Positions 347-63,410 of a DNA stretch of 64,000 bases are shown piece by piece. Under the pieces are notes generated by a model, which saw nothing but the letters and a program-made list of their open reading frames with translations, had not been told where the DNA came from and did not search any database. Positions within the stretch are counted from its first letter, which is position 1; the number at the start of each line of letters is the position of its first letter. A program made the translations under genes and the position numbers. This DNA is from Prevotella sp. (GTDB taxonomy: Bacteria > Bacteroidota > Bacteroidia > Bacteroidales > Bacteroidaceae): positions 1-64,000 of the forward strand of contig JAFVFY010000013.1 of assembly GCA_017475265.1 (NCBI GenBank), written 5' to 3'.

Positions 347-1396
347 TTACTGCGCAATGTTATACTTTGATAATAACTCTTTGAAAGCTTGTGCTTCAGG
401 AGACTCTTTTACGTCTTTTTCGGCTCCAAGCATCCGTGCCGTCGCATGGTCTCTCAGTTCAAAGAACCTTTGTGCCTGAGGCGTCCAATACAAGTACTCG
501 TATGCGTGAGGAACTCCGGGTTCCACATAGAGCTCTGTGAAAATACCGGCCTCCATAAGCTTCTGAGCATAGCTCATGTCTTCGTCGCAGAAAAGATCAA
601 GGCTGCCGACAATCATGAAGGTCTCGGGCAGTCCTTTCAGCTGCTCAACGGTTGCCACTGCCGGCGAGAAATATATCATTTCCTCATCGGTAAGCTCCTT
701 GTCCTGGCCTTCAAGGAGTTTTCCCCATCCAAAGACGTTGTTCTCCTTTGTCCAGACGCAATGCCCGGCATATTCATTCTTGTAGATATCCTTTTCACCT
801 CCGGTACGATAGTCAAGCATGGGATAGATGAGCACCTGGCCCTTCAGAGGAACCTTTCCCTTGTCCTTGTTATAAAGAGCCAGACGTGCGGTCAGTCCAC
901 CACCGGCGCTCTCTCCCTCAATGACAAAATTATCGGGATCCACATTTAGTTCATCGGCATGCTCGTAAGCATAAAGGAGTCCAGCATAGACTTGTTCAAG
1001 CTCCATGGGATATTTGTAAGAAGGATCGAGGGAAAGTGTATAGTCAGGAGCAATAACCGTGGCACCACTCCCGTCTGCTACGCCCTGTATCTTTTCCTGA
1101 TCCATGCTCACATTGCCAAAATGGTAGCCACCGCCGTGAATGAAATAGACAAGCGGTGTCTTCTCACCCTCTTTGTAATTTGCTGGACGGAAGACATACA
1201 TGTTAAACATTGAACATTGACCATTGAACATTGAACATTGATCATTCCCTACGGCAATGGTCAGTTTCTTGGCGTTTTGGGGCTCTTTCCCCTCTACTTC
1301 CAAATCTACATTTGATGTCCCCACGGGTACGGTGATGCCATCAATCAGTTCATATCCTTTTGCAAGGAGATTTGCGCTTTTCGTTTTCATAATCAT
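347..1396 (-). CDS. Alpha/beta hydrolase, HSL-type esterase
   Basis: A 349-residue serine esterase of the hormone-sensitive-lipase type. Visible motifs are the oxyanion HGGG (87-90), the nucleophile elbow GESAGG (Ser163), and likely Asp267 (in GSLDLF) and His297 (in VPHAYE) completing the triad. There is no signal peptide, so it is probably cytoplasmic. It begins 3 bp after the stop of the amidohydrolase at 1400-3064, so the two are likely co-transcribed. Residues about 51-66 (NDQCSMFNGQCSMFNM) are not part of the fold's core: they are encoded by a tandem 7-nt repeat (1208-1242) inserted before the first core strand. Substrate unknown; short-chain esters are the usual substrates of the family. 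Confidence 0.85.
   Translation of the reverse strand: MIMKTKSANLLAKGYELIDGITVPVGTSNVDLEVEGKEPQNAKKLTIAVGNDQCSMFNGQCSMFNMYVFRPANYKEGEKTPLVYFIHGGGYHFGNVSMDQEKIQGVADGSGATVIAPDYTLSLDPSYKYPMELEQVYAGLLYAYEHADELNVDPDNFVIEGESAGGGLTARLALYNKDKGKVPLKGQVLIYPMLDYRTGGEKDIYKNEYAGHCVWTKENNVFGWGKLLEGQDKELTDEEMIYFSPAVATVEQLKGLPETFMIVGSLDLFCDEDMSYAQKLMEAGIFTELYVEPGVPHAYEYLYWTPQAQRFFELRDHATARMLGAEKDVKESPEAQAFKELLSKYNIAQ
1208..1242. repeat. Heptanucleotide tandem repeat inside esterase gene
   Basis: Five 7-nt units (CATTGAA, with CATTGAC and CATTGAT variants) on the plus strand. On the coding strand the unit is TTCAATG, read in frame as repeated NxQCSMF. The reverse orientation would contain TGA stops, so the orientation is the tolerated one. 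Confidence 0.85.
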
Positions 1397-54597: not shown

Positions 54598-56606
<2,009 letters not shown>

Positions 56607-56610
<4 letters not shown>

Positions 56611-57990: not shown

Positions 57991-59433
<1,443 letters not shown>

Positions 59434-59442
<9 letters not shown>

Positions 59443-61923
59443 CACAGCCCTTGCACTCGCGGCCATGATATCGATGACGGTAGCGATGTCGGCCACGTCA
59501 ACTCTACCGTCATTGTTTACATCAGCGGAAGGCGATTGACCATTGCTAGCCATGACATCGATGATGCTGGCAATATCGGCCACGTCGACTTTACCGTCAG
59601 CGTTCACGTCACCCTTGACGCTGTCGCCTCCATAGTGGTACTCCAAGTAGAGAATGACACACTGTTGCTCGCCAGTATTGGTGAAGGTGACGGTGTCTTT
59701 CACGTTGTCGAGGGTGAAGGTGACGGCATTGGGGTTGTCGCGTGGGGCGTCAAGGTCGAGGATGGTGGCGGTTGCCTCCGTGTATTCTTTGCCCGCCACT
59801 TCCTTCCAATAGCTGGTGCGATTGCTGGCATTGGTGCCAGTGACACTGTAGATGATGAGCTTCGTGGCCTTTGCGCCCTCAGGCATGATGATGGCGTTCT
59901 GTGCGCCATTGCTGCACTTGATGGCAGTACGCTCCAGGATTTCACCGTTGTAGGGAATCTTTAGTTTCGGAGTACCAGCAGAGGTGTACGACTTCTGCAA
60001 GTTGCCTATGCAGACGAGCGAGAAACCGAATGCCTCGTCGTTCTCTGCGCCTACCATCATGTTTTTGTACGAGCTATTATCATAACTTTTGTTTATCATG
60101 TTGCCCCAAGCCAAAAGAGCGGTCAAAGTCTCACCAATGGGTGGATCTACCTGGCTCTGGTCATCGGGGTTCTTTTCTCCGCCTACCACCTTTAGCACGC
60201 CCTTAGTGTAGAGTTCCGTTGCGTCCCATGTCTGGCCTTCGCCAGGTGTCTCGGGCAGAATCTGCTTGAAGGTGCCCGTGATGGTGCCGCCGGAGATATT
60301 GAAAATCTTGTATTCGGTCTTGTCGTACGGAGCCTCATCAAAGTCTATCCGTAAGGTGGCGGTAGTAGCGATGGTGGTCGCCTTCTTCAGGGTAATAGTA
60401 TTGCTCTTGGTGCGGTCGGCAGGCACGATGAGGGTTGCCGTTCCGTTAAGCTTCATCGTGTTGTTAAAAGTCAGTCCGCGCTCATTGACGAGGGTATCGC
60501 CAGCCTGCAAGAAGCCGCCAGTATTAATAGTGGTGGCAGCTGCCAGCGAGCCTGTTCCGGCCAGCGTGGCTCCTGTGCGAACGGTGACCGCTCCTGTTCC
60601 TGAGTGCGTGCCGTTTACGATGAGAGTTCCACCGCCGACAATGGTCGTGCCGCTATAGACATTGTTGCCAGTGAGTCGCCAGTCACCCGTTCCCTGCTTC
60701 TCGATGCTGGTGGTTCCAGGGTGTGAACCGGCCTGGTCGTTGTTATTTATTACGCCACGGAAGGTCTCGTCGGTATTGGCACCGCCCACGATCCAAGTGC
60801 CGGTGCCTTTTGCCTTCACGTTGAATCCTGCCAGATAGGAACCGGCATCGCCCGAAAGACCGCCTAAGTAATAGGTAGATTCGTTCTTCGCGCCGTTGAT
60901 GGCCGCTCCCGACTTTAGATAGATGGTGGCGTTCTTGATGCCCACATTGTTGCGGATGGCAAACTGACGGTTGGTGCCGCGATTGCCTGCTGTGGTGATG
61001 ATGAGCTTGCCAGTGAAGTTGTCCCAGTTGCCCTCAATATACTCACGCAGATAGCAGACCCCCCATTGCAGCGTTCCCGTTCCGCTGATGTTGCACTTGT
61101 TGGTGTTCCAAAAGTCGAAGTTTACAGTCGAGGTCGTTCCCGCCTCAGCCACGATGGGGAAGTTGTAGGTCACGTTGGCCTCGTTCTTGCCCACGGTGGT
61201 AAAGCTTCCACCAGCCATGACGAGGTGAGAGGCTGAGCCAATGCCAGCATCGCTCACTTCCTTTGTGTTCAGCTTCACCGTGCCGCCCTCAATGCGGAGG
61301 TCACCGTCGTAGTTGAAGAAAGAAGTGTTATTGACTACCATCGTTCCCTCGCCGCTGATGATAAGGTTGCCCTGCCCCTCGATTCCGCCGTTCATAGTGA
61401 CGGTTGCACTCTTGATGGCGATGTCGAAATGAGTGTCGCTGTAAAGCTTTGCCGAACGATTGGTGGAAGTCGTGTAACCAGTGTACTTATACGTACCGCC
61501 ATCCATGACCCAGTTCTGGGCGAACTCCTGACTCATGCCCAGTCCGCTGGCCACGCCGCCGTTCTTCAACGATTTGAACTCATATACACCCTGATGAAGC
61601 ACGGTTGACCCTTCATACTGCTGGTTTGAAGCAATGGTCAGCGTACCCTCACCGGTCTTGTTGAGCGAAGCAGAGCCGCTGATGTAGCCCGTTCCGTCGA
61701 TGGTGACGTTAGCATCCGAGCGTACCACGACGGCGGTCTTCGACATAGCCTCGGTCAGGGTGAAGGTCGTGTCTTCCGTAGGAGCAATGAGCCATTCGCC
61801 GTCACCCTCGCCAGTAAAGGTGTCGCAGTCGATGATGTCGACCTGTTCGGGACGGGTCTTCACAGTCAGCGCAGCAGTATAATCGCTCTTAGCATCGCCT
61901 TTGTAAGCACAGACACGCACCAC
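59434..61923 (-). CDS. Autotransporter-repeat and dockerin part of a frameshifted pectate-lyase gene
   Basis: An 829-codon open frame with only a GTG at its start and no signal peptide. Its first residues (VRVCAY...) are the end of an FnIII strand that begins in the neighbouring lyase gene. Then come beta-strand repeats of the autotransporter-associated/PATR type (GEGTLTIASNQQYEG, GDWRLTGNNVYSGTTIVGGGTLIVNG) and two C-terminal dockerin loops (DVNADGKVDVADI, DVNNDGRVDVADI at about 772-813). It is almost certainly the 3' part of the 61941-63410 gene, separated by the frame change at the heptamer tract 61948-61974. Expression as such is doubtful unless the frame is restored. Confidence 0.75.
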
Positions 61924-61940
61924 GTAGGGTTTGCCAGGCT

Positions 61941-63410
61941 CTAAGGGGAATTGAGAATTGAGAATTGAGAATTGCTGGTGCGGCCCACTTCCACGAAATT
62001 TCCGTTTTGCTGTATCTCCACGATAAAGCCGTCCTCATTGTCCGAGTAGTCGGCCCACTGCAGGGTCAGACTATTGGTGGTGGCACTCTGCAACGAGAGA
62101 AGCATAGGTTGGCGGAGAAAGAATTGTCGGTCTTCTATAGTAATAGAGTTGATATAGTTCTCAATGTTGGTATAACCATTGTCACGCAGCACCATGGCAT
62201 CGTCCACGGCGGGGTCGGTAGCGTTGTCCACCTCCCACTCGTCAGGCATACCGTCACCATCGGTATCCTTCTGCTTCGTACCCTTGAACCAGGGCCAGCT
62301 GGTAGGCACGCCGATGGGTAGCTCGTTCTCGTTGGTGATGAGTTTGCCCTCCGTGCCGAAGCTGAGCACCTCGTCAATCATGTAGCAGTCGGCCAGGTCG
62401 CGGTAGGGCAGCGAGGCACCCACGTCGGGCAGCAGCTTTTCCACAAGGTCTTTGCCCGACCATGTTTCTAACTCCGGATAGTCGTAGGGCTGACTCTTAC
62501 GGTCGCCGCCTCCGTTGCCGGTAAACAACTCTGGATTGTACACACCGTCCTTATTGCGGTCCTGCCAGTTATCGCTGCCATAGAAGTGGAAACCGGAATT
62601 GCCACCAGAAAAACCGTCGGCCGACGTGCTGGTGGAGTTACCGTTGATAAAGAGGTTGCCAACGGCATTGGCATAGGACTCACCCGCCGATTCACCGCCC
62701 ATCTCGTAGGCGTATGTGCTCCAGTTGTAAACGAGGTTGTTCACGTACTGGTGCTTGCCCTTTACCTTGAAGTTGCGGGTCTTGTTGTCGCAGAGCAGCA
62801 CACGGTACATCGTGATGTTGTCGGCCTGGATGAGTCCGCCGGCCGAGTGCTGCATCAGCCCCTGGCCCACGATACTGTTCTGAATGGTGATGTCATGGGG
62901 AGCGGTGCCCTTGTTGTCCCAGTTGATGGAGAAGTTCTCGTCCTGTCCCCATGCAAACGAGCAATGGTCGAAGATCATGTTGCCGCCATTGGCCAGTCCG
63001 CCACAGTCGGCATCCTTCGTGCCCACCGCACCCATGCGGAAACGCATGTAGCGGATGATGACATTGAAAGCGCCCGAACACGACATACCGTCGCCATAGA
63101 CGGTGATGCCCTCGCCGGGAGCCGTCTGTCCGGCAACGGTGATATTGCTCTTAAAGACAAGACGCGAATTGATGCGTATGACACCGCTCACGTCAAAGAC
63201 CACGATACGGTTGGGCTGGCTCACGGCATCACGTAGCGAACCCGTTCCAGAGTCATTGAGATTCGTCACATGGTACACCTTTCCCGTACGTCCGCCAGTG
63301 GCGAAGCGTCCCCAGCCCTGAGCCTCAGGGAAGGCCAGTTGCTGGGCATTGGTGTCAAGAAATGCCGTTAGGCATAATAATAAGCCTAAGAGTAGTTTTT
63401 TCGTTTTCAT
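61941..63410 (-). CDS. Pectate-lyase-like (PL1 type) secreted enzyme, truncated by frameshift
   Basis: A 489-residue protein with signal peptide (to about TNAQ), a right-handed beta-helix of pectate lyase type (GWGRFATGGRTGKVYHVTNLNDSGTGSLRDAV, FDVSGVIRI, IIRYMRFRMG, DHCSFAWGQDENFS), a calcium-like DTDGDGMPDEWE loop, then an FnIII domain that stops at TSNSQFSILNSP because a heptamer tract shifts the frame. One more 7-nt unit, or two fewer, would join it in frame to the 59434-61923 part, giving a protein of about 1,325 residues. It should cut pectin in the periplasm or on the surface. Confidence 0.82.
   Translation of the reverse strand: MKTKKLLLGLLLCLTAFLDTNAQQLAFPEAQGWGRFATGGRTGKVYHVTNLNDSGTGSLRDAVSQPNRIVVFDVSGVIRINSRLVFKSNITVAGQTAPGEGITVYGDGMSCSGAFNVIIRYMRFRMGAVGTKDADCGGLANGGNMIFDHCSFAWGQDENFSINWDNKGTAPHDITIQNSIVGQGLMQHSAGGLIQADNITMYRVLLCDNKTRNFKVKGKHQYVNNLVYNWSTYAYEMGGESAGESYANAVGNLFINGNSTSTSADGFSGGNSGFHFYGSDNWQDRNKDGVYNPELFTGNGGGDRKSQPYDYPELETWSGKDLVEKLLPDVGASLPYRDLADCYMIDEVLSFGTEGKLITNENELPIGVPTSWPWFKGTKQKDTDGDGMPDEWEVDNATDPAVDDAMVLRDNGYTNIENYINSITIEDRQFFLRQPMLLSLQSATTNSLTLQWADYSDNEDGFIVEIQQNGNFVEVGRTSNSQFSILNSP
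61948..61974. repeat. Heptamer repeat at the lyase frame break
   Basis: Three exact GAATTGA units (61948-61968) plus six of seven bases of a fourth (61969-61974). The coding strand reads QFSILNS in every frame. Confidence 0.9.

Follow-up and report, generated by a model that had tools for sequence, protein, structure and literature searches.

A gene for a secreted-looking, pectate-lyase-like protein is interrupted by a frame break at a short, perfect heptanucleotide array in a Prevotella sp. genome (assembly GCA_017475265.1, contig JAFVFY010000013.1). The stretch analysed, hereafter the window, comprises 64,000 nucleotides from positions 1 to 64,000 of this contig. We propose that the tract is a member of a family of short heptamer arrays, spread across the genome and sharing a TCAA core, whose copies are gained and lost in variable protein segments, and that the present state of the lyase gene is more likely a chance mutation at a hotspot than a selected switch. 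We put the probability of this reading at roughly 60%. The first-pass annotation of the window had interpreted the tract as a possible phase switch.

The repeat on which that annotation was based is real. Tandem Repeats Finder delimits it to 61948-61974, with a period of 7, 3.9 copies and 100% matches; the span of 61941..61975 given previously adds a few flanking bases. The upstream ORF (open reading frame; 61941-63410) ends in ...TSNSQFSILNSP-stop just past the array, in agreement with the earlier observation that the lyase frame stops directly after the tract. This piece contains a signal-like N-terminus (by inspection), a pectate-lyase-like domain, a TSP3-like repeat that scores below the Pfam cut-off, and the first strands of an FnIII domain. 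The match of the lyase domain to NCBIfam PelZ is partial (130 bits vs. a cut-off of 840), and 'pectate-lyase-like' is therefore the safer label. The downstream piece, which is read in another frame, holds the remainder of FnIII, a PATR region and a dockerin. By inspection it has neither a signal peptide nor a convincing start at the junction, as had been noticed in the first pass, and its first listed start is a GTG at 61923. The array sits within the approximate limits of the FnIII domain (61864..62111), where it occupies a variable strand or loop. The spacing between the conserved halves of the gene is 53 bases in the window, or 2 modulo 3, which places the two halves in different frames. 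The evidence supports a truncated product that keeps the signal-like N-terminus (as judged by inspection) and loses PATR and dockerin.

Comparison with relatives supports the view that the lyase half and the FnIII/PATR/dockerin half belong to one continuous gene. The upstream piece matched 93 loci in named genomes, and the best 80 of these 93, which were retained, come mostly from metagenome assemblies of Prevotella or Prevotellaceae, which is the basis for regarding the host as a relative of rumen Prevotella. Of 115 loci, 108 covered the junction on both sides, representing 87 distinct sequences (L003, L004, and L086 are copies of the window). The frame is kept across the junction in 85 of the 87, the exceptions being the window itself and L064, whose junction contains Ns. 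The 53-base gap of the window thus contrasts with the other 86 distinct junctions, 85 of which have gaps of 0 modulo 3, and the earlier frame arithmetic proved right. The frame shifts whenever the number of units gained or lost is not a multiple of three. A search of 150 genomes of the genus, our own included, matched the downstream piece in 83, with many of the matches weak or confined to a single domain; after the own copy, the ten best matches each lie in a single open frame, 985 to 1373 codons long. Intact ORFs encode 1360 aa in L087, 1342 aa in L006, 1319 aa in L028, and 1089 aa in L024 (Prevotella communis E15-14, complete genome). In all four of these homologues Pfam fn3 crosses the junction, with L028 below the curated cut-off, and PATR is found. 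The first-pass annotation had named homologues in the form of two genes with their own starts as evidence that would speak against its reading; relatives carry single open frames, and two independent genes are thereby ruled out. The C-terminal module varies among the lyase homologues, with a dockerin in L087 and L006 and none detected by Pfam in L024 and L028.

Most of the 87 sequences have an ordinary FnIII strand at the junction. Heptad-like tracts built from another unit, or from a mix of units, occur in frame at the same site in L007/L087 (33 bases of TCAATCT), L021, L028, L040/L089, and L083/L103 (heptads without TCAA), and weaker traces are seen in L033/L104 and L042. L006, which has the top lyase identity (93%), is without heptads at the junction. 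The presence of different in-frame heptads at the same FnIII place in several relatives marks this place as a recurrent host of heptads.

The lyase tract belongs to an excess of period-7 repeats that is beyond chance. The window contains 7 exact period-7 arrays, compared with 0 in three Markov resamples. Exact arrays in 859 kb of the same genome numbered 93 for period 7, 0 for each of the periods 2-6, 2 for period 8 and 8 for period 9; in 934 kb of relatives' loci there were 38, 15 and 6 for periods 7, 8 and 9, respectively. The larger own-genome sample covered 1,838,403 bases (1.84 Mb) in 101 stretches and yielded 187 merged heptamer arrays, a density that may be inflated, because the contigs were partly picked from array-hit lists. 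By our own codon-score classifier, complemented by frames judged by eye, 88 of these arrays lie intact within genes, 6 split a gene (the array being open in both frames), 3 fall in the class of stops or two genes, 44 lie before a gene, 20 after a gene, and 26 in non-coding DNA. Degenerate arrays of period 9 (259) and period 6 (138) in the own sample were also above shuffle. A second heptad type, GATTTAC/ACGATTT, lacks TCAA and lies between ORFs or at their edges (L146:2258, L155:4823, L166:1604, L178:12361).

We scanned 18 host ORFs of our choosing, plus murF and dxs among others. The scanned set includes murF, dxs, the glycine cleavage P protein, a pyridine-nucleotide oxidoreductase, CbiC, CobD, and a radical SAM protein, as well as TonB receptors and a sulfatase. 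In this simple tally, based largely on ORFs that we chose, the arrays do not appear concentrated in surface or variable genes, and core enzymes are included. MurF and DXS are generally essential proteins. Each of their genes carries at least one in-frame array in the window (Table 1), and the MurF of genome G072 has neither of the two window MurF arrays and has another heptad array elsewhere. As aligned, the dxs genes of G116, G121, G129, G034, and G127 do not have the dxs array. For 12 of the 88 intact coding arrays a counterpart could be located in the G072 sample, although 4 of the 12 have flanks that are <65% identical, so that these may be paralogues, and one gap is common to two of the 12; all 12 counterpart gaps are multiples of three, and 2 of the 12 hold TCAA heptads. 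In five other genomes that are 99% complete, 3 of 25 distinct arrays (from six matches listed per genome, out of 200 in all) were in an intact coding frame, and the heavy coding load may therefore not be genus-wide.

Table 1. Features of the lyase gene and in-frame heptad arrays of other genes in the window.
Feature	Position	Strand	Remarks
Perfect heptad array of the lyase gene	61948..61974	-	27 bases, unit AATTCTC (coding strand TCAATTC), inside FnIII domain
Upstream piece, 489-aa ORF	61941..63410	-	ORF listing and profile scans
Downstream piece, other frame	59434..62037	-	Open across the array from 62037 to 59434
FnIII domain (approximate)	61864..62111	-	Limits inferred, transferred from intact homologue L087 (fn3 residues 432-514)
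PATR repeat	60616..60702	-	Profile scan
Dockerin type I domain	59473..59616	-	Profile scan
Heptad array in murF, in frame	58205..58232	+	No array at this place in G072 murF
Second heptad array in murF, in frame	58713..58755	+	No array at this place in G072 murF
Heptad array in dxs (54598-56610), in frame	56193..56267	+	Shorter in G072
Heptad array, TCAATGT/TCAATGG mix, in frame in ORF 347-1396	1206..1246	-	No heptad at G072 counterpart

Six genes are split at arrays in the own-genome sample: the lyase gene of the window and the genes for a LamG protein (L160), a dockerin protein (L224), CobT (L236), FeoB (L279) and an AMP-binding ligase-like protein (L285). The CobT pieces, separated at array L236:11283-11310, match successive parts of the profile (1-210 and 227-328). 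Those of FeoB, at array L279:371-406 near the contig end, carry FeoB_Cyto on one side and Gate and FeoB_C on the other. In L285 the first piece matches AMP-binding below the cut-off and the second is without a Pfam match. The LamG protein, of 3,074 aa, is split near its C-terminus at array L160:12300-12322. Its C-terminal piece was matched in 50 of 150 genomes, the best matches being about 44-52% identical; many of these tail relatives, which are sequence matches and not established orthologues, lie in open frames of some 2,900-3,400 codons and others in shorter frames.

A first screen for split genes had classified 75 merged arrays of the own sample as 41 intact, 29 other, and 5 split, those of the G072 sample as 10 intact, 10 other, and 0 split, and those of the relatives' loci L006-L085 as 18 intact, 16 other, and 2 split. 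When the frames were read, four candidates were rejected: L154, L162, and L178 proved to be antisense or to lie at gene junctions, and L006 to lie at a gene junction; the first-screen case L023 was left out of the split count. Candidates L178:12361, L236:12056, and L239:8056 of the second screen were dropped as gene pairs or as having a stop in the array.

A four-base core, TCAA, recurs throughout the family. It is found in the unit of 170 of 220 exact arrays, where about 5% would be expected by chance, and is the most frequent 4-base core among the degenerate arrays. Four TCAA at a 7-base pitch with free spacers were matched in 232 of 299 same-genus genomes and in 44 of 118 genomes of the phylum sample, mostly at low counts in the latter (our own genome included in both). 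The reversed pattern served poorly as a control. It matched frequently in some genomes, and since a TCAACT array also contains AACT at period 7 the comparison is not a clean one; these matches nevertheless reduce the weight of the bare pattern counts as support for TCAA. Among the matches listed, the spacers of several species vary between units. Between neighbouring units of our own arrays the spacer differs more than the core, with ratio intervals of 1.43-1.96 for 137 coding arrays and 1.49-2.16 for 102 others, values that may be somewhat favoured by the choice of phase by TCAA. Because the core is conserved more strongly than the spacer both inside and outside coding sequence, coding constraint alone is not the cause. 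TCAA lies on the coding strand in 123 of the 137 degenerate coding arrays with a TCAA consensus, a bias that is expected if the opposite strand introduces TGA stops. Clusters in which triplets of TCAA heptads follow one another at a spacing of 51-67 bases were seen at G146 C2:115881-116007 and G132 C1:1794677-1794900.

The repetition of TCAA every seven bases with freer spacers might mean that the heptads are more than products of slippage: they would form a dispersed family held to a rule and acted on either by a nucleic-acid-binding protein that reads TTGA/TCAA at a 7-nt pitch or by duplication seeded by TCAA microhomology. Such a family would put in-frame peptide loops across the proteome and sometimes switch genes off, the lyase gene among them. 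We advance this proposal tentatively and regard it as somewhat unlikely. No description of a TCAA-core heptad family was found in the literature searched, and, to the extent of that literature, both the in-frame coding load and the TCAA rule appear to be new.

Known heptanucleotide repeats in bacteria offer partial parallels. The Calothrix heptanucleotides go by the name STRR. In neuO of E. coli K1 the heptanucleotide AAGACTC stands in the coding sequence two nucleotides after the start codon in 2-93 units, three units give one heptapeptide, and switching has been reported (PMC3046976). The lyase tract resembles neuO in being a heptamer array within a coding sequence in which unit numbers not divisible by three shift the frame; it differs in lying mid-gene, in having about 4 units, in being one of many arrays in the genome, and in being no more than a candidate for switching. 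In H. influenzae, TGAAAGA tracts of 13 to 38 units occupy the hmw promoter, AATTTTG x14 lies within hmw1A of PittAA, and AACAACC lies within a homologue of HI1369 (PMC2651432). The parallel is that these include heptamers within the ORF of a large surface protein, with a shift of frame, whereas the H. influenzae survey describes a handful of heptanucleotide loci with longer tracts and variation between strains. Like a contingency locus, the lyase tract is a tandem repeat whose unit number sets the reading frame.

Interspersed heptamers are known as GGGAATC in Xanthomonas, as GGGGA(C/T)T in Nostoc, as the Calothrix heptanucleotides, and as TAACTGA in Beggiatoaceae and some Cyanobacteria and Bacteroidetes (PMC4692102, PMC4679880). 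As in those cases, one family is dispersed over the genome, with unit variants in some; here too period 7 stands far above other short periods and dispersed arrays share a unit. Unlike them, this genome has 88 of 187 arrays in frame in genes, a TCAA core, and freer spacers. The excess of heptamers in bacteria is already known: Mrazek et al. (2007) found them to be the most abundant class in most genomes, proposed the contact length of the polymerase as the cause, and considered unit lengths divisible by three likeliest in coding regions (cited in PMC4692102, PMC4679880). In contrast to the last point, 7-base units are common in the coding regions of this genome, and neither the TCAA core nor in-frame retention in core enzymes appears in the content of Mrazek et al. 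(2007) that is cited there.

A pure array on the TCAA strand encodes the same heptapeptide in all three frames and contains no stop, which allows it to be tolerated in genes while its length keeps the frame. Under the hotspot reading, arrays would be kept in frame by selection and would sometimes break a gene. The lyase halves were most likely put out of frame by gain or loss of units through slippage in this lineage. The cell would then make a secreted lyase that stops inside FnIII, without PATR and dockerin. Later unit changes could restore the frame, and the gene may be phase-variable in principle: reversible switching is possible by the frame arithmetic and by the precedents of NeuO and H. 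influenzae (PMC3046976, PMC2651432). The rate of switching by slippage at some 4 units is probably low, given that the tract has fewer than four units, compared with 2-93 for NeuO and 13-38 for hmw in those reports.

Breaks are enriched at the arrays, yet the genes they hit are diverse, a pattern more in line with a mutational hotspot than with a selected switch. Split-like calls were made for 6 of 94 coding arrays and for 59 of 8009 coding random intervals (Fisher p = 1e-4); the split arrays have longer pure runs than the intact ones (one-sided p = 0.04), and the AATTCTC unit occurs in 4 of 6 split vs. 12 of 88 intact arrays (p = 0.007). Several points weigh against the hotspot reading. Six cases underlie these p values, the random intervals were unmatched for place and include ordinary gene junctions, and the split calls come from our own classifier and frames read by eye, those of L224 and L285 mainly by eye. 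In the longest class, pure runs of >30 bases, 13 arrays are intact and 0 split, which simple length-driven slippage does not predict. Among 20 arrays of a 400-kb sample of G072, 8 are intact and 0 split. Slippage at the lyase tract is itself inferred, from genomes compared one per species, and the genome, with its 135 contigs, has the look of a draft or metagenome assembly, in which some breaks could be errors.

The proposal that the tract is a selected phase switch, at which slipped-strand changes in unit number toggle the full lyase-FnIII-PATR-dockerin protein in the population as in NeuO, gains from the secreted look of the protein, the purity of the array and the correct frame arithmetic. 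The recurrence of heptads in frame at the lyase site of relatives, the splitting of other large extracellular-looking proteins (LamG, dockerin) at arrays, and the precedents for heptamers in coding sequences noted above point the same way. The tract nevertheless has fewer than 4 units, and the relatives with heptads at the site all have them in frame. Other members of the same family sit in frame within murF and dxs or split CobT and FeoB, which does not give the tract the look of a designed surface-gene contingency locus, and we consider a selected switch unlikely. A plain pseudogene, whose break is irreversible in practice and which yields a truncated lyase or nothing, overlaps with the reading we favour, and the odds of the two are not exclusive. 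Both pieces are otherwise open and the break could be the sole lesion so far; but the downstream piece, free of stops from end to end, shares 84% identity with G072 across 802 residues, which argues that the break is recent or often reversed. As an explanation in its own right we judge it distinctly unlikely.

An error of assembly or consensus at the repeat, with the gene in frame in the living cell, would be in keeping with the 135 contigs and with breaks enriched exactly at repeats, where assemblers can err. None of the 25 distinct arrays from the five 99%-complete genomes was split by eye, though just 3 of them are in an intact coding frame. Yet the lyase array, at 27 bases, fits within a short read, and 88 of 94 coding arrays, some of them longer, are in frame, indicating that the assembly does not fail at heptads generally; an error here seems to us less probable still. 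Recoding, by which ribosomes would shift frame on the tract to make some full-length protein, draws on both frames being open across it. Inspection by the general rules for such sites, however, gave no canonical bacterial slippery heptamer at the junction, and the other 85 in-frame junctions need no shift, making this the most improbable of the explanations considered.

If arrays do come and go in frame in core enzymes, they would continually supply gut and rumen bacteria with new protein loops and with a way to inactivate a gene in one step. The occupation of the same FnIII position by different heptads in sister species makes this idea of turnover testable, and the TCAA core raises the question of why the unit has seven bases and why the core is TCAA.
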